Shown here piece after piece: positions 35,175-51,619 of a stretch of DNA of 60,120 nucleotides. Position numbers and translations under genes: made by a program. This DNA comes from Deltaproteobacteria bacterium (GTDB lineage: Bacteria; Bdellovibrionota; JACOXK01), in contig JACPKQ010000001.1 in NCBI GenBank assembly GCA_016186995.1, forward strand, positions 1 through 60,120, read 5' to 3'. The notes under the pieces are model-generated. The model was not told where the DNA came from. It was given only the letters and a program-made list of their open reading frames with translations, and made no database searches. Within the stretch, counting starts at the first letter, position 1; each line of letters begins with the position of its first letter.

Positions 35175-37613
35175 TTATTTAAAAAGTGAATCATTGTGCA
35201 TGATATCTGTAAGAAGACTCATGATGAGAAGCCTGTTTGTTTCGATTTTTTTTTCTTCAAGAAGAGCCAGTTTTTTATCAAGTTCAGCTTGTTGATCTTG
35301 AGAAAGGGATTCCCAAAAATAACGATTCTTGTTTGCCTCTGCCTTTACTTTTTCTTTCTGAGCTTCAACTTTTTCTAATTTCTTATCTAATTTCTCAAGA
35401 TCTTTATAGATAATAGTCACTTCTCCAAAACAAACAGCATAATCAAAAAATTTTCTTTTAATTGTGGTATTATCTTCTGCAAACCAATTTTCATAAAATC
35501 GAAGTTTAGTTTTTGATTCTTTAATTTTTTTCTCAAGAACAGGGCCAAAGAAAGGTTCTAAATCTGTATAGAGAAGGTCAAGTTCTGTTTTATAGAGAAC
35601 ACCATTTAAATCAAGATCATATTTTGTAAAAATCATTTCAATAAGTCGAATCATACCAAAAATAATCTCAATATCTTTAAAACTCACTTGTTCATCTAAA
35701 GTTTTACCTAAAGCCCCAAGTATTTTTGAAATATATTTTTCTAAATCTTCTTTTGAAAGTTCAAAATGAGAGTGGGGGAAGTATTTAAAAATAAGTGAGG
35801 TGTCTCTTAAGTTTCGAACGGTTTCATCATTTTGAGGAAGTTCTCGTGCTTCAGCCAAGATATAATGCGGATCTTCTATTTTTTTTGTTTCTTCAAAAAA
35901 GGCTCTGGCATTTTTTCTCGTTTCGAAAAGAAAACTGATCACTTCAAGAACTTCGTATTTATCTAAAATACCATTACCATTACTATTATGAAAAAAACGG
36001 TCTGTTAAAAAGCTTAATATCTTGGAGAAAAAGAGAGATTCTTCTTCGTTTAATTCAAAGAGTTTTGTATTAGAATCTGTGGCATTGGGGTTACTAATAA
36101 GAAGGTAAAAACCCTTCACAAGAAGTTGAATAGTTTTCATCAAAGAAGAGAGTTCAGTTTCATTAATCTCACCTAAAGCAACTTCACTATTTTTATCTTT
36201 GTCATAGGCATCTAAAATAGACTCCGTAATAGTAAGAGCTATTTGTGAAAGAATAAAGTCATATTTTTGAATGCCCTCGGTTACTTCAAAAGGAGATTTC
36301 CAATACTGTGTGATACGTGGAAAATTTTCATACATTTTTTGATAGCTTACAAAATCGTTTCTAGAGAATCCTTCTTCATTATTTTTAAATTTTTCTAAAT
36401 TATTTATTGTAAAACGATTAATGTCATGCCTTGTAACACTTTCTTGCCTTAAACCTTCAAAGAGTCTTAAAGATCTTTCATAGTCTTGAAAGATCTTTTG
36501 ATTGATGGCTCGTAATTTTCGAACTTCATTGGCGGTGAGAAGATCAGGGCTTCCTCCGCAAATATAAATTTTGAGTTCAAAAAGGCCTTGTACAAAAAGG
36601 TGTGAATTTCCATTGATTTCAGTTTGGAGAAGGTTAAAAAGCTTTGTTAAATCTTCTCGAGAAATGGTTTTTTGATGGTTATCTTCAAATAACTTAAAAA
36701 TGTATTCAAGGAGTTTATAATAATGAACTAGAAATTGAACAGAGCTTTCTGTCGTAATATCTGTAAGATTTTGGTAATAGTGAATATCTGAAAAAATGCC
36801 ATACATATCTTCTATGTTTTTAAAGAGTGGTACTAGAATATCTTTTAAAAGGTTCTCTTCAGGATGACCATAAAGTAGGCGATGGCTTAAATAAGTCGCT
36901 TCAATGTAATGCTTTCCAATTCCCTTATCTAAGCCGTCCCAAAGATTGTACTGATTGAGAACTAAATCACGTGGGAGATCATGAATAACTTTACCTCTTT
37001 CATTTTGAAGCATTGTTTTTATCATTTTGATATATAAAGAGAGAATTTCTTTACGTAATTGATAACTGTGTGGATCGAGTGTTTTATAGGTTTTAAGTTC
37101 TTGAAATTTCTGCGAAGCCATTTCTATTTCAGGGCTTATTTTTTGAAATCGATTGAGAACCTGAGTCATTTCAGAGTATTTAAAGATTCTTTGTTTTGTA
37201 GGGTTTTTAGGTCCTAGAATAAGATCTTTAAGAGAAAAAATTCTCTCTATCCAAATATCAAGTTTTATTTGACCTCCTGAAACTTTGGGTAAAAAGAAGC
37301 TTTTTATCAAGACTTTAATTTCATTATCTGTCACTTCACCTTGAGTTTTAGTAATAATTTTTTCTTTATTCTCTTCTAAAGTAGTGAGCGCACACACAAT
37401 GATATGATTTATTTCTTCTTTATGAATGGTGCCACTGATAAATTTATTTGATATTTCTTCAAAATTAAAGGAACAAGGCCCTTCTGTGGTGGTAGTATTA
37501 AAGTTTTCTCCCTTCCAAATCCCATTTTCTTGTTGCTTTCCTCCCCACCAATTACTACAACCTGTTAAAATTAAAAAAGAAAATATAAAAAAGAATATTC
37601 TTTTAAAAAACAT
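35175..37613 (-). CDS. Large lipoprotein with EF-hand calcium-binding motifs
   Basis: An 812-residue lipoprotein, lipobox LTGC (Cys19). Mostly helical, with three canonical EF-hand loops: DKDKNSEVALGE (about 467), NSNGNGILDKYE (about 541) and DLDLNGVLYKTE (about 663); a weaker EF-like segment NHQKTISREDL lies near 310. The C-terminal 90 residues are a charged coiled coil (KDLEKLDKKLEKVEAQKEKVK). No enzymatic motif is visible. It is the second gene after an outer-membrane barrel, overlapping by 11 bp, so it may be a Ca2+-dependent surface or periplasmic partner of that barrel. Family unknown to me. Confidence 0.75.
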   Translation of the reverse strand: MFFKRIFFFIFSFLILTGCSNWWGGKQQENGIWKGENFNTTTTEGPCSFNFEEISNKFISGTIHKEEINHIIVCALTTLEENKEKIITKTQGEVTDNEIKVLIKSFFLPKVSGGQIKLDIWIERIFSLKDLILGPKNPTKQRIFKYSEMTQVLNRFQKISPEIEMASQKFQELKTYKTLDPHSYQLRKEILSLYIKMIKTMLQNERGKVIHDLPRDLVLNQYNLWDGLDKGIGKHYIEATYLSHRLLYGHPEENLLKDILVPLFKNIEDMYGIFSDIHYYQNLTDITTESSVQFLVHYYKLLEYIFKLFEDNHQKTISREDLTKLFNLLQTEINGNSHLFVQGLFELKIYICGGSPDLLTANEVRKLRAINQKIFQDYERSLRLFEGLRQESVTRHDINRFTINNLEKFKNNEEGFSRNDFVSYQKMYENFPRITQYWKSPFEVTEGIQKYDFILSQIALTITESILDAYDKDKNSEVALGEINETELSSLMKTIQLLVKGFYLLISNPNATDSNTKLFELNEEESLFFSKILSFLTDRFFHNSNGNGILDKYEVLEVISFLFETRKNARAFFEETKKIEDPHYILAEARELPQNDETVRNLRDTSLIFKYFPHSHFELSKEDLEKYISKILGALGKTLDEQVSFKDIEIIFGMIRLIEMIFTKYDLDLNGVLYKTELDLLYTDLEPFFGPVLEKKIKESKTKLRFYENWFAEDNTTIKRKFFDYAVCFGEVTIIYKDLEKLDKKLEKVEAQKEKVKAEANKNRYFWESLSQDQQAELDKKLALLEEKKIETNRLLIMSLLTDIMHNDSLFK

Positions 37614-38931
37614 GTTTCACCTTAAGCCACACTCGATCTTGCCGATCATATTGTCCCCAATAGGTATTTTTAGGCCCTTTAAAAAGGTCTATGCCGCCTC
37701 CGATTTGGAACGATTCTGTAATATTGTAAAAGAGTGCATTTGTAACAACGGTATCATCTAATTTAAAATCTGATTCTGTGAAAAATGACAGTGTTAATTG
37801 AGGTAGTACTTGAAGTTTCAAATCATAAAAGAAGAGAGTAGATGCATGGTTTAAGCCAAAAAGACCAACTTCTGGGGTTTTTTCGAGTTCTTTTGAATAG
37901 AGAAGCCCCGCTGTAAAATTTTTTAGAAACCGATTTTGTCCTAAATATGAAACTGCAAATGTGTTATTTAACTTTGTGGGCTTAAACATGATATTTTTTA
38001 AATTACTTGGATTTTCTGGTTTGATATAAGCACTTTCAGCAATAAGATTGACGCTTTGAAATTTTAATTTAGTTTCAAATCCGTAAACTCTTTGTCTATA
38101 AAACTCAGGATAAATTTTAACGTTTCCTTGGAGTGAAGACTCATCTTTAATTTCAACTTTAGGATCAATGCGAAGCCTTGGTTGAGGATCCACTGTATCT
38201 GCAGCTGTCAATGCTAGATCTGCATACTTTGATTGAAAGGCAAGTCTTCCAGCAAAACTATTTTTCAAAACTGTTTTTTTGATATTAGGCATGATGAGAT
38301 GATAATTAATAGGTTTGTAACCATCTTTTGCTTCAAACTGGTAGTAAAGGGGCATGGCCCATCGTGAAGCAGGTAAAATAGTATCGTCGTTATCCTGTAC
38401 ATAACGAGCTCCACCCATATGTGGAATATAAAGAGGGCTAACCATAAGCTCATAAGACCAAGAGCCTGTATTGAGTGCTGTGTAAAGCCCCGAAAGACCA
38501 TTGATTTGATAGTTAATAGGATCAATCGTAAATTGAGGAAAAATCTCTTGAATAGGGCTGTAGCGGAGTAGGGCCCCCCATTCTGGGCGAACTCTTCCTA
38601 AAATCATACTGAAATAATGAGTTCGATAGCTTAAATGCGCTTGAGATATATTAAACCATTGAGAAGCTTCTTGTGGGGACATAGCCCAAAGACTTGAATC
38701 AAGACTCCATTGCAGTCCAGGAAGGTAAGACTGATCTCTTTGAAATCGAACGCCTAAACGAAACTCTTGTAACTTACCATTATGCTTTTCAGCATAAGAC
38801 ATACCCTCCACTTCAGTTTGAAGGTGTACTTCTGGAAAAGCGTCTGCCTGCTCAGTGACAAGAAACTCCGCATAGGTTTTTGAAAACCCTAGTAATATGG
38901 TTAGTAATATAAGAGCTCTGAGTGTTTTCAC
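37603..38931 (-). CDS. Outer-membrane beta-barrel (porin-like) protein
   Basis: A 442-residue protein with signal peptide MKTLRALILLTILLGFSKTYA (in parts), many amphipathic strands (LQEFRLGVRFQRD, AHLSYRTHYFSMILGRVRPEWG, GAFGFETKLKF-like VYGFETKLKFQS, LTLSFFTESDF) and a C-terminal Phe in WLKVKHVF, the usual sorting signal for barrel assembly. It resembles alginate-export-type or substrate-specific porins, but I cannot name the substrate. Starts with GTG behind GAGGAG. First gene of a two-gene unit with the EF-hand lipoprotein. Confidence 0.75.
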   Translation of the reverse strand: MKTLRALILLTILLGFSKTYAEFLVTEQADAFPEVHLQTEVEGMSYAEKHNGKLQEFRLGVRFQRDQSYLPGLQWSLDSSLWAMSPQEASQWFNISQAHLSYRTHYFSMILGRVRPEWGALLRYSPIQEIFPQFTIDPINYQINGLSGLYTALNTGSWSYELMVSPLYIPHMGGARYVQDNDDTILPASRWAMPLYYQFEAKDGYKPINYHLIMPNIKKTVLKNSFAGRLAFQSKYADLALTAADTVDPQPRLRIDPKVEIKDESSLQGNVKIYPEFYRQRVYGFETKLKFQSVNLIAESAYIKPENPSNLKNIMFKPTKLNNTFAVSYLGQNRFLKNFTAGLLYSKELEKTPEVGLFGLNHASTLFFYDLKLQVLPQLTLSFFTESDFKLDDTVVTNALFYNITESFQIGGGIDLFKGPKNTYWGQYDRQDRVWLKVKHVF

Positions 38932-46917: not shown

Positions 46918-47706
46918 TTAGGATTTTTTTATTTCCTGTAAGACAATTTTATTAAAAGAAGGAAAGAGTTGTTTAGCTGATCCTTCGACAATGGCTATCT
47001 CAAGATAACCAGAACTGCCAAAAAGTGCTACAAGATTATTTTTAGGTCTATCAAAGTAGGTTTTTGAAATATCTTCTATTGTCTTATCTTGAATTTTCAT
47101 TGAATAGTGCGCGTGAGGCTTTAAATCTTTTTTTTGAATATTACTGACTAGGTTTCCAAAATGATCAGCATAAAGGACTTCTCCTTCAACACTTTTTTCA
47201 TTTTGATGTACACTGGGAGCATCCAAAGACTTTATCTTTTCTAAAGCAGGTCCAAACTGTTGAGGCTTCATGCCCAGGGATAAATGTGCGGCAACGGGTG
47301 TAAAAATATCTCGTCCATGAAAAGTAATACTGACATTTTTAAGATGGTATTCTGAGTTTTTAAGCTCAATGATCGACTTTATTTTTTCGTTCTCTAAAGC
47401 AAAGGTGAAAATACCATTATCAGGGCCAATAAAAAAGTAATTTTCTGTTTCTATTAAAATAGCTTTTCTGGAGGTTCCAACCCCTGGATCCACGACACAA
47501 ACATGAATTGTTTTTTTAGGGAAATAAGAATAAACCGTTTTAAGTAAAAAACCTCCTTCAAGAATATTGTGGGGTGAAACTTGATGGCTCACATCTACAA
47601 TCTTTAATTGTGGATTCATAGAAAGAAGAACCCCTTTCATTTGAGGTACATAGGTGTCTTTAGTGCCAAAATCTGTGAGCAAAGTAATAATAGATTGTGA
47701 CTTCAT
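46918..47706 (-). CDS. SAM hydroxide adenosyltransferase (DUF62 family)
   Basis: About 262 residues from ATG 47706 (GAGGG Shine-Dalgarno); an ATG at 47736 would add ten residues. The family hydrolyses S-adenosylmethionine to adenosine and methionine and is related to fluorinase and chlorinase. ITLLTDFGTKDTYVPQMKGVL is the N-terminal signature; HVCVVDPGVG and FIGPDNGIF bind SAM; FHGRDIFTPVAAHL carries the conserved Arg and His. C-terminal domain with DHFGNLVSNI. Convergent with msbA (one base apart), divergent from the PLD genes. Physiological role unclear. Confidence 0.9.
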   Translation of the reverse strand: MKSQSIITLLTDFGTKDTYVPQMKGVLLSMNPQLKIVDVSHQVSPHNILEGGFLLKTVYSYFPKKTIHVCVVDPGVGTSRKAILIETENYFFIGPDNGIFTFALENEKIKSIIELKNSEYHLKNVSITFHGRDIFTPVAAHLSLGMKPQQFGPALEKIKSLDAPSVHQNEKSVEGEVLYADHFGNLVSNIQKKDLKPHAHYSMKIQDKTIEDISKTYFDRPKNNLVALFGSSGYLEIAIVEGSAKQLFPSFNKIVLQEIKKS

Positions 47707-47761
47707 GCAGCCCTCAATATATGCATTTAATAACAAAAGTTCAATGAGATTTTATTTTTGT

Positions 47762-47800: not shown

Positions 47801-48334
47801 ATGAAGGCTCAACTTAAAAAATATTTCTTCCTCACTACACTGTTTCTACCGTTCTTTCTTTCTGCAGAAGTTGAAACCTATTTTTCACCTAAGGGTGGGT
47901 TTAGGGAGAATCTTTTAGAAAAGCTTGATCAAGCTCAAAAAACTCTTGATATTGCTGTTTATCATGTGGAACCCCGCTTGCTTAAAAAACCAGTTTTGAA
48001 AGCCCTTGAGAGGGGAGTTCGAGTGCGGATTTCTCTTAACTATGGGGCTGATTGGGCACGGGCCGATCATAAAGAAATTTATGAAGAGTTTAAGAATAAG
48101 AAAAATATTAAAATTCGAAAGCTCGCTAAAAACAACCATCAAAAGTTTGTTATTATTGATGGGGATACTGAACAATTTACCATTATAAATGGAAGTGCCA
48201 ACTGGGCTTACAGTGCCGATCATACCTATGATGAAGACACCCTTTTTATTTCAGGGAGTGATGAAAACCATTTAAGAGACCAGTTTGTAGAGGAATTTGA
48301 AAAAATATGGAAACTCAGTTCAGAAAAATTTTAA
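47801..48334 (+). CDS. Exported phospholipase D-family protein, one HKD motif (first of three)
   Basis: A 177-residue protein with signal peptide (MKAQLKKYFFLTTLFLPFFL then SA). The mature part is a single PLD domain: NLLEKLDQAQKTLDIAVYHV begins it and the HKD motif is His113, Lys115, Asp120 with GSANW at 131-135. Single-HKD proteins of this size (Nuc type) work as dimers, often as non-specific nucleases. A frame extension to 47654 has no signal-like start and overlaps the neighbour's leader, so it is rejected. Start overlaps none; end overlaps the next PLD gene by 28 bp. Substrate (DNA, RNA or phospholipid) cannot be told from sequence. Confidence 0.85.
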   Translation: MKAQLKKYFFLTTLFLPFFLSAEVETYFSPKGGFRENLLEKLDQAQKTLDIAVYHVEPRLLKKPVLKALERGVRVRISLNYGADWARADHKEIYEEFKNKKNIKIRKLAKNNHQKFVIIDGDTEQFTIINGSANWAYSADHTYDEDTLFISGSDENHLRDQFVEEFEKIWKLSSEKF

Positions 48335-49125
48335 AGTTAAAAGTATTTTTTCTATTTTTGCCAGTATTATTGAGTGCAGAATCTGGAAGCTTTTTTTCTT
48401 CAGATAACCACGAGCTAGTGCAAAGTAGAAGTGGCAGTTATTCTTTAAAGTTGAATCCAGAGAGTACTGTTGTGGCTGACCAGATTATCGATGCCATTAG
48501 GAACGCTCGAAAATCTATTTACATAGCAACAGCTCATTTCAATTATGTAGATATTGCTGAAGCACTTGTTGAAAAATCTCTTTTGCGAGATTGGAAGGGT
48601 GACATCAAAGTACTTATTGACCAAAGCGATGGTTCTAATATTTCACAAAGGGATCATCTTAGTAAAAACCTGCCAGAGGGGAGTGTTCGAACAAAGTATT
48701 ATCAATTTAAAGTGTTTCATCCAAAAGCAAAACTCATGCATCATAAATTTATGATTGTGGATGGAAAGATTCTTTTTACAGGGAGTTATAATTGGTCAGA
48801 AACAGCAGAACAAAGTAATTTAGAAAACATGGTTGTTTTTGAAGGAAAGAAATATCAAGATCTTATTCAAAAATACAGTGATCAGTTTGATAAGGTGTGG
48901 AATTACAATCGTGATCAACTAGATGCCCTGTATGATTCCTGGGAAAAGGAAAACGTCATAGCACTTCATTGGAAGGTAGGATATTCTCTAACACAGAAAG
49001 AGTGGAATGATCTTCGTGCCACAGCTAAAAAACTGATTGGAAAAAAATTCTTGAGTTCATTTGCAGCGGAACACCTCTATTATGACAAAAAAACAGGACG
49101 TGCTTGGGGTGCGGAAGCTCACTAA
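48307..49125 (+). CDS. Exported phospholipase D-family protein, one HKD motif (second of three)
   Basis: A 272-residue protein with signal peptide (KVFFLFLPVLLSA, 12-24). Core: VVADQIIDAIRNARKSIYIATAHF, then HKD motif His145, Lys147, Asp152 and GSYNW (159-163). Beyond the PLD domain, a 90-residue charged helical extension (about 185-272) includes WEKENVIALHWKVGYS and the tail KLIGKKFLSSFAAEHLYYDK, not found in the first copy. AGGA lies about nine bases before the ATG. The gene overlaps its neighbours at both ends (28 bp and about 17 bp), implying one polycistronic message. Confidence 0.85.
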   Translation: METQFRKILKLKVFFLFLPVLLSAESGSFFSSDNHELVQSRSGSYSLKLNPESTVVADQIIDAIRNARKSIYIATAHFNYVDIAEALVEKSLLRDWKGDIKVLIDQSDGSNISQRDHLSKNLPEGSVRTKYYQFKVFHPKAKLMHHKFMIVDGKILFTGSYNWSETAEQSNLENMVVFEGKKYQDLIQKYSDQFDKVWNYNRDQLDALYDSWEKENVIALHWKVGYSLTQKEWNDLRATAKKLIGKKFLSSFAAEHLYYDKKTGRAWGAEAH

Positions 49126-51085
49126 CTTCGTTATTTTAGGTGCCTTGGGGCTTCTGCTTGTTTTTCCAGTCAAAGCAGAAAAGATAAGATTTTTTCATAA
49201 TTCTCCTCCACTCGAAGGAAATTTGCGGGGAGGGTTATTAGAGTTTTTAAATAGTGTTTCTTATGAGGGTCAGATTAAGGCTGCTATTTATCAGTTTTCT
49301 GATCCCATTATCGTCGAGCGGCTTTTATCTTTAAATAAAAATAAAAAAATTCAATTACAGATGGTAACAGATAGAGATTATCATAGATATCCAGAAGCCT
49401 ATGCCACTATTCATCAACTGTATACTGAAAAACTAGAAGAAAAAGATCTTACAGAAGAGTATGTGCTTTTTTATTTTGATAAAGCTTTATTTCACCCTGA
49501 CTTAGTTAAAGACATTCTTCTTGAACGGGGCCTCAATGTAAGTAAAGTTGTTTTAAAAAATGCTCGGACTACTGTTTTAGAAAAAACAAAAGAGTGGACG
49601 GCGTCACAAAAGTTTCACATTACAAAAAGTTATCATCTAGAATATTTAAAAGCTTTTTATGAATTGAAAAAAGCAGGGGTTCAAATTGTAGCTGATGTAG
49701 GGCTTCCCTTGTCACACAACAAATATTTTATTGTAGATAAAAAAAGAGTATGGGTAGGGTCATACAATATTACGGAGAGATGCGCTAAAAAAAATGCTAA
49801 TCAAGCTGTGTGGGTAGAAGATGAAAAAGTAGCAGAGTTTTTTATTCACGATTTCAATCAAATGTTTTTTGAAAAAAAATTCCAAAAGAATAAAAAACGT
49901 GTTTCAGATGAATTTCCACGTGTGATTGATTTAGGGGGAGGCGAAAGAATTGAAATCTATTTTTCACCCCAGGATGATATTGAGTGGCGCTTAGCTGAGT
50001 TGCTTGATTCCGCTAAAAAATCTATTTTCTTTAATACGTATGTATTTACCCATGAAAGCATGGGAAATCTTCTCATTAATAAATTTTTAGGGGAAGAAAA
50101 ATTGCCTATGAAATTTCGAAAGCGTGTAGAAGAAAACACAGACAGAAAAAAAATAGATTTTCATTTAACAGAATCTTTCAAGACGCCTGTTTATGGTGTT
50201 TATAATAATTTAAGTCTTGATGACTCTCATTTCCTAAAATTAAGAGAGTATCAATTACCTGTTAAGATATGCGCTTATGAGGGTGAGCATCATAATAAAT
50301 TGATGGTTATAGATGGAGATACTCAAGCAGGCTATGTTATTACAGGTTCTTATAACTTTTCTGATTCTTCTGTTGATAATGATGAGGTTCTCATAGTCAT
50401 TTACAGTCCTGAAATTGCTAGAAAATACCAATCTTATGTTAAAGAAAATTATCGCAATGCTCATCCACAATATGGCGATGAAGAAGGTTATCCAGCATGG
50501 GGTCGACTTTCCAGAATACCTCTTGCTATAACCGAAATTATGTATAACCCAAAACTTAAAACTATTGAAAAAAGAAGCCCTCAAGATATTGGAGAGTTTG
50601 TTGAAGTTTATAATTATGGAGAGGAGGCACAAGATCTGACAGGTATTAAAATATGTACGTTACAGCAAGACAAACCCTCTTTGAATGAGAGGCGCTGTGA
50701 TGAACTGACAACCCCCCTTGCAGAACCGCTGCTAGCGCCCCACGAATTCGCCATCATTATCGATCGTGATTTATTTGATATGAAGGGCGCTTATGCTGAC
50801 TACTACAAGGAAATTACAAAAAATGCTTCACTGGTTTTAACCACCCATGAGGGGAGGGTGAGCTTAGGAGATGGTCTTAAAAACAATGTGCATGTATATC
50901 TGATGCACCGTGATACTTATACTGTTTTAGATAAGTACTTAGGGTCACAACAAACAAAACCAGGGCAATCTGTTGAAAGAATTAAAAAACCTGTGTGGGG
51001 TGGTGATGAAATTCATTTTGATTTAAAAGAATGGAGATTAAATCCTCAATCCTCGCATTCAGCCGGTCATCCTTCGTGGCAATAA
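49109..51085 (+). CDS. Exported double-HKD phospholipase D-family protein with lamin-tail domain
   Basis: About 658 residues. GTG at 49109 gives MRKLTNFVILGALGLLLVFP-VKA, an ideal signal peptide with AGGA nine bases upstream; ATG 49082 and TTG 49061 are longer alternatives. First PLD domain: HNKYFIVDKKRVWVGSYN near 202-219. Second: HNKLMVIDGDTQAGYVITG-SYN near 394, with a longer spacer between Asp and GSYN. The last 190 residues form a lamin-tail (LTD) domain: PLAITEIMYNP, GEFVEVYNYGEEAQDLTGIKI and HEFAIIIDRD, ending ...WRLNPQSSHSAGHPSWQ. LTDs in secreted bacterial proteins accompany nucleases and attach them to DNA or surfaces. An extracellular nuclease is my inference. Confidence 0.85.
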   Translation: MRKLTNFVILGALGLLLVFPVKAEKIRFFHNSPPLEGNLRGGLLEFLNSVSYEGQIKAAIYQFSDPIIVERLLSLNKNKKIQLQMVTDRDYHRYPEAYATIHQLYTEKLEEKDLTEEYVLFYFDKALFHPDLVKDILLERGLNVSKVVLKNARTTVLEKTKEWTASQKFHITKSYHLEYLKAFYELKKAGVQIVADVGLPLSHNKYFIVDKKRVWVGSYNITERCAKKNANQAVWVEDEKVAEFFIHDFNQMFFEKKFQKNKKRVSDEFPRVIDLGGGERIEIYFSPQDDIEWRLAELLDSAKKSIFFNTYVFTHESMGNLLINKFLGEEKLPMKFRKRVEENTDRKKIDFHLTESFKTPVYGVYNNLSLDDSHFLKLREYQLPVKICAYEGEHHNKLMVIDGDTQAGYVITGSYNFSDSSVDNDEVLIVIYSPEIARKYQSYVKENYRNAHPQYGDEEGYPAWGRLSRIPLAITEIMYNPKLKTIEKRSPQDIGEFVEVYNYGEEAQDLTGIKICTLQQDKPSLNERRCDELTTPLAEPLLAPHEFAIIIDRDLFDMKGAYADYYKEITKNASLVLTTHEGRVSLGDGLKNNVHVYLMHRDTYTVLDKYLGSQQTKPGQSVERIKKPVWGGDEIHFDLKEWRLNPQSSHSAGHPSWQ

Positions 51086-51619
51086 TTTATTTTGGATTTT
51101 AAGTATTTCATTTTGATAATCTAGATTTTCATTTTGATAATGATGTTCTAAGTCAATCACTTCAGTTCCTGCAACAATATCATGCCAGCACTTTTTATCT
51201 TTCTCCCAAAGACTTGAAAGAAATCCAATTCCAAACGAAAAAAATGAAATAAAGTAACCCAGTGTTCTTATCCAAGACTGAAAAAAACTCATCTCGCTAG
51301 TATAAGTAGAAACAATTCTAATTTTCACTATTTTTTTTCCAAGAGTTTGTCCTGTTCTATATGTTAGCATTTGAAAATAAATAAGATTTAAAAAAAGAAT
51401 AAGAGAAGTACTAAAAACATGGAGGTTTTCTAAAAGCACATGAGGATAAAGAGGTGTTAAAATTTTGATAATGGCTTGAAATAGTGCATTAAAAGTTAAA
51501 AGAATGAATCCATCGAGGAAAAATGCAATGAGACGCTTATGAAAGTGTGCTGATTCATAAATGTTTCTCAGTTCTAAAGAGGTGAGAGGTCTTATAAGAT
51601 TAAGCTGCTTCTTTTTCAT
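51059..51619 (-). CDS. RDD-family membrane protein
   Basis: A 186-residue RDD protein. HKRLIAFFLDGFILLTFNALF begins the domain (Arg and Asp signature), a second helix pair follows, and the third has YRTGQTLGKKIVKIRIVS and WIRTLGYFISFFSFGIGFL. The family has about three to four helices; function is mostly unknown, with some members proposed as Na+/H+ antiporters. The start overlaps the rhomboid gene by 20 bp; the 3' end overlaps the convergent third PLD gene by 27 bp. Confidence 0.85.
   Translation of the reverse strand: MKKKQLNLIRPLTSLELRNIYESAHFHKRLIAFFLDGFILLTFNALFQAIIKILTPLYPHVLLENLHVFSTSLILFLNLIYFQMLTYRTGQTLGKKIVKIRIVSTYTSEMSFFQSWIRTLGYFISFFSFGIGFLSSLWEKDKKCWHDIVAGTEVIDLEHHYQNENLDYQNEILKIQNKLLPRRMTG

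Follow-up and report, generated by a model that had tools for sequence, protein, structure and literature searches.

A predicted split form of an exported two-domain phospholipase D in a metagenome-assembled bacterial genome

Three overlapping genes encoding predicted exported phospholipase D-family proteins

We analyzed a window of 60,120 nucleotides (the whole stretch of DNA, with positions counted from its first letter) taken from a metagenome-assembled genome of 1.68 Mb in 30 contigs that is 93% complete (G000). Three successive open reading frames of 177, 272, and 667 aa were identified on its forward strand. The first overlaps the second by 28 bp (48307-48334), and the second overlaps the third by 44 bp (49082-49125). 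All three proteins match the Pfam family PLDc_2 (PF13091; E-values of 3.9e-19, 6.5e-25, and 1.2e-29, respectively), the third one over two stretches. The first two proteins have a single intact HKD motif and the third has two, and a GSxN follows each of these motifs. The combination of PLDc_2 with HxKx4D and a downstream GSxN places the three of them in the phospholipase D (PLD) superfamily. Their N-termini pass a rule-based scan for signal peptides, in which a positive n-region is followed by a hydrophobic core and by xLSA/E or VKA/E, the slash marking the end of the predicted signal peptide. An earlier note on this DNA had described three successive overlapping genes, each with a predicted signal peptide and with one, one, and two HKD motifs, and the reading frames, the PLDc_2 matches, and the scan bear this description out. 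Beyond these genes, PLDc_2 matches were found in one further frame of the genome, of 714 aa.

The features of the locus are given below, under the gene names A (in two parts, A-N and A-C) and B that follow from the comparison with related genomes.

47801-48334, + strand: A-N (protein 1), predicted exported single-HKD PLD protein of 177 aa; PLDc_2, aligned to the N-terminal half of fused A of G002, G004, G005, G006, and G007
47801-47866, + strand: predicted signal peptide of A-N, MKAQLKKYFFLTTLFLPFFLSA/E, from the rule-based scan
48137-48160, + strand: HKD motif 1, HQKFVIID (H113, K115, D120), from the translation; column invariant in fused A
48307-49125, + strand: A-C (protein 2), predicted exported single-HKD PLD protein of 272 aa; PLDc_2, C-terminal half of fused A including its C-terminal extension
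48307-48334, + strand: putative fission junction, where A-N and A-C overlap by 28 bp, from the reading frames and the alignment
48307-48378, + strand: predicted signal peptide of A-C, METQFRKILKLKVFFLFLPVLLSA/E, which would replace the hydrophilic linker of fused A, from hydropathy and the alignment
48739-48762, + strand: HKD motif 2, HHKFMIVD (H145, K147, D152), from the translation; column invariant in fused A
49082-51085, + strand: B (protein 3), predicted exported two-HKD PLD with a C-terminal lamin-tail-like domain, 667 aa, from identity to B orthologues and trees
49082-49177, + strand: predicted signal peptide of B (...LLLVFPVKA/E), from the rule-based scan
49715-49738, + strand: HKD motif 3, HNKYFIVD (H212, K214, D219); invariant in B orthologues
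50291-50314, + strand: HKD motif 4, HNKLMVID (H404, K406, D411); invariant in B orthologues
50522-51082, + strand: lamin-tail-like C-terminal region of B; Pfam LTD with an E-value of 8e-5, below the cut-off, the orthologue in G002 being above it

The lamin-tail domain previously assigned to the third protein could be recovered in part: its match in the window stays below the Pfam cut-off (23.4 against 34.3 bits), but that of the G002 orthologue passes it (36.4 bits).

The A-B cassette in related genomes

In five of the six sister-family genomes of the same class (G002, G004, G005, G006, and G007), the cassette consists of two genes, A and B, and not of three, the pair being interrupted by contig ends in G006. 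There, gene A is a single open reading frame of 472-493 aa with two HKD domains and one signal peptide, while gene B encodes 736-753 aa with two HKD domains and a lamin-tail domain, and the two genes overlap by 1-4 bp. The gene B of G004 is seemingly split, which is actually caused by a run of undetermined bases (N) in the assembly. Proteins 1 and 2 of the window match the N- and C-terminal halves, respectively, of the single frames of 475-502 aa found directly upstream of the B orthologue in G002, G004, G005, and G007, with about 30-36% identity to fused A per domain, and protein 3 is 31-34% identical to its B counterparts in four genomes of the sister family. Placed end to end, proteins 1 and 2 can be aligned along fused A, and their junction then falls inside the inter-domain linker. 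The order of the cassette is kept in the window, i.e., A-N, A-C, and then B in an overlapping frame, and A is not a single two-domain chain there, since it is split at 48307-48334.

The locus had previously been described as a modular series of growing enzymes, in which a helical extension of protein 2 elaborates on protein 1. We had to abandon both ideas. Proteins 1 and 2 appear to derive from one ancestral two-domain enzyme, the former being its N-terminal half and the latter its C-terminal half, and the match of protein 2 to the C-terminal half of fused A reaches residues 252-269, beyond the PLD domain, in several homologues. Hence, the extension is the usual C-terminal region of A. The proposal of a joint exported PLD system, which was to be given up if the genes were scattered in relatives or if the HKD residues were not conserved, fared better: A and B are overlapping neighbors in sister-family genomes and the orthologues have kept every HKD residue, so that neither objection applies.

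Across 369 genomes of the phylum, the two-domain matches, about 62 as counted by eye from the listing, are in frames of 412-577 aa, and the single-domain matches are in frames of at most 231 aa, a few of which are cut by contig ends. The sole match of intermediate size among these genomes is protein 2 of the window (274-aa frame), and no second split A gene was found among the matches. As the fused form of A is shared by the sister family with several families that are more distant, a single fission in the lineage of the window would be the simplest history. The window's family has a single further genome, G001, which has no match to A. G001 encodes an exported B-like two-HKD PLD of 453 aa without a lamin-tail domain (L054:3413-4774), which has an EF-hand-like DVNQNGIIELWE insert at about the position of an insert in protein 3. 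A second PLD of this genome, of 684 aa, was also aligned and showed no clear likeness to A or B.

In the domain trees, protein 1 is placed within the A-N domain clade (support of 95/94 with 43 rows and of 97/90 with 73 rows) and protein 2 within the A-C domain clade (98/96 and 100/99, respectively). The N- and C-terminal domains of protein 3 group with B-N and B-C, and the single-domain Nuc proteins of the phylum form a separate clade (99/99). An AU test only just rejects proteins 1 and 2 as sisters (p 0.0497), and a placement of either one with the Nuc singles is not rejected. The branch of protein 1 is long (1.76), which suggests fast change. Taken jointly, the trees, the alignment, the C-terminal extension, and the synteny make the fission of an ancestral gene A into proteins 1 and 2 appear well supported. 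Judging from these sequence comparisons, the locus is a lineage-specific split form of an exported two-domain PLD of known type, located beside a second two-domain PLD and seen in one metagenome-assembled genome.

A possible heterodimer outside the cytoplasm

The usual explanation for PLDs with two HKD motifs is a fusion of single-HKD ancestors. If our reading is correct, the window has the reverse case, where a fused enzyme was split and its second half gained an export signal of its own. Ancestral A would have been one exported protein in which the two HKD domains together formed one composite active site. It would have been divided by a stop and an overlapping restart within the inter-domain linker, the linker having become the second signal peptide, and A-N and A-C would now be secreted separately via Sec. 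An A-N:A-C heterodimer would then rebuild the ancestral two-histidine phosphodiesterase site outside the cytoplasm, and the overlapping frames would keep the synthesis of the two chains coupled and about equal. B has both HKD motifs in one chain and may be held at the envelope by its lamin-tail domain. In this scheme, A and B are most likely periplasmic or surface phosphodiesterases.

The AlphaFold model of the fused A of G002 is one compact fold (pLDDT of 81.9, pTM of 0.84), whereas the one of B, made from 5 sequences, had a mean pLDDT of 34 and was discarded. Single-HKD PLD nucleases are known to form dimers whose active site lies at the interface, and the two histidines of Nuc are the nucleophile and the general acid (PMC5714352, PMC10783504). 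From such interface sites we infer the A-N:A-C heterodimer; export, coupled synthesis, and substrate are likewise our deductions. A literature search for split PLD heterodimers found no direct precedent. We regard it as on balance probable that the split A reassembles as an exported heterodimer beside B and acts as a phosphodiesterase, rather a nuclease than a phospholipase. The chances seem slightly better than even that A is a natural split enzyme, in which two secreted single-HKD chains have to meet outside the cytoplasm before one active site can form and a new signal peptide replaces the linker.

Alternatively, the fission may be real and the halves may have become two separate homodimeric enzymes with diverged substrates. 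This would agree with the full HKD and GSxN set present in each half, with the fast change of protein 1, and with the typical homodimerisation of single-HKD proteins (PMC5714352). We nevertheless consider it unlikely, as the adjacent genes and overlapping frames favor equal synthesis and each half retains the motif surroundings specific to the subfamily of its own domain. If a fused A was indeed split, the locus would allow a test of whether the two halves still need each other, for which the fused relatives are the controls. It also shows that the number of exported PLD genes in an operon can exceed the number of enzymes.

Likely activity and resemblance to known systems

The family and fold matches, both of which are weak, slightly favor a nuclease acting on DNA or RNA over lipid hydrolysis. 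The closest structures to the fused A model in the PDB are PLD3, Serratia PLD, PLD4, and E. coli phosphatidylserine synthase. PLD3 and PLD4 are nucleases. These two (8v5t, 8q1x) are the best PDB match and share with the model a bilobal fold with two HKD motifs and a single composite active site, but the identity is about 17% and the TM about 0.6, and the protein studied here is bacterial and split into two chains. Matches by sequence in the PDB are Nuc, NucT, and mitoPLD. Nuc and NucT (1byr, 6ehi) resemble proteins 1 and 2 in having PLDc_2, one HKD per chain, and a signal peptide. They differ from them in that the window proteins score at most 41 bits with the NucT models, whose curated cut-offs of 211-351 bits are not reached, and in that proteins 1 and 2 group with the halves of the two-domain A, and not with Nuc, in a free tree, although the AU tests do not reject a grouping with Nuc.

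An action of the cassette on lipids, as phospholipase D or transferase, is rather doubtful. Two of the fold matches, E. coli phosphatidylserine synthase and Serratia PLD, would agree with it, but the best ones are the nucleases PLD3 and PLD4, and the best named-family matches include NucT, although well under its cut-off. Lipid-active PLDs typically have two HKD motifs in one chain (PMC10783504), whereas lamin-tail domains are carried by secreted nucleases such as ExeM (PMC6085458). An envelope-directing role was suggested for this domain in ExeM (PMC6085458), and by analogy the one of B may direct it to the envelope. Both ExeM and B have a signal peptide and a lamin-tail domain on an exported phosphodiesterase (PMC6085458), but the catalytic domain is EEP in ExeM and PLD in B, and the lamin-tail domain is N-terminal in the former and C-terminal in the latter. 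We also considered DrmC of the DISARM system, which has a PLD domain in common with the window proteins. It was rejected because it matches proteins 2 and 3 weakly (41 and 29 bits against a cut-off of 133) and the window proteins are predicted to be exported. No other DISARM gene was found beside the locus.

The junction between the two halves of A

The maximal hydropathy over 12 residues is 2.62 at the window junction (VFFLFLPVLLSA), whereas the linkers of twelve fused two-domain homologues do not exceed 0.83. The leader of A-C starts with basic residues and ends in LSA/E like the one of protein 1. Just ahead of the linker, an invariant Trp is retained in the frame of protein 1, past a run of six A (A6). 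The chance rate of such hydrophobic leaders is about 4-6% of open starts or shuffles in the AT-rich DNA found here. Hence, the predicted leader at the junction is strong in context, if short of proof.

A frameshift introduced by sequencing or assembly, with the organism making a single fused A protein, is thus very unlikely, as the linker is hydrophilic in the fused homologues and a predicted signal peptide here. One could argue that the split is known from one genome, that short homopolymers (A6, A5T4) are present at the junction, and that a one-base change there would fuse the frames and leave a linker of about the same length. However, in the joined product KVFFLFLPVLLSA would be part of the linker, whose counterparts in the twelve fused homologues are hydrophilic, and a shift of frame at A6 would abolish the invariant Trp. 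In addition, the A-C leader has a positive n-region, the LSA/E site of the protein 1 type, a start codon, and GAGG upstream. Just as improbable is a reading of proteins 1 and 2 as unrelated single-domain nucleases of the Nuc type, each forming a homodimer, that were joined by tandem duplication or acquisition. Exported single-HKD Nuc proteins are common in the phylum and the AU tests, given the short domains and the diverged window sequences, reject neither protein 1 nor protein 2 with the Nuc singles (p 0.15 and 0.13), but the trees place protein 1 in the A-N clade and protein 2 in the A-C clade, protein 2 has a C-terminal extension homologous to fused A, and the order and position ahead of B are the same as in fused A.

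Surroundings of the cassette

The locus is flanked by a divergent gene (46918-47736) and a convergent one (51059-51619). The latter, on the minus strand, encodes an RDD-like membrane protein and shares 27 bp with the 3' end of the third PLD gene. Scans for promoters and terminators gave no excess relative to shuffles.

In the sister family, the genes d1-d4 are directly downstream of B, a position that they do not occupy in the window. Orthologues of d3 (a beta-barrel-like exported protein of 442 aa at 37603-38931, minus strand, with E-values down to 4e-66) and d4 (an EF-hand lipoprotein of 812 aa at 35175-37613, minus strand, with E-values down to 2e-34) are found around 9 kb from the cassette, on the opposite strand, and may belong to the same envelope system as the PLD genes. 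A search for d1 in G000 found none, a weak result because it had no positive control in this genome. The d3 and d4 orthologues (35175-38931, minus strand) have almost no Pfam match, and their counterparts close the PLD operon of the sister family. Divergently upstream of A, two sister-family genomes (L057:13706-16058 and L059:14912-17798) encode a secreted protein of 437-444 aa together with a clostripain-family protein, an assignment (Pfam Peptidase_C11) that was tested in L057. The corresponding pair of secreted protein and clostripain adjoins the A fragment of G006 (L068).
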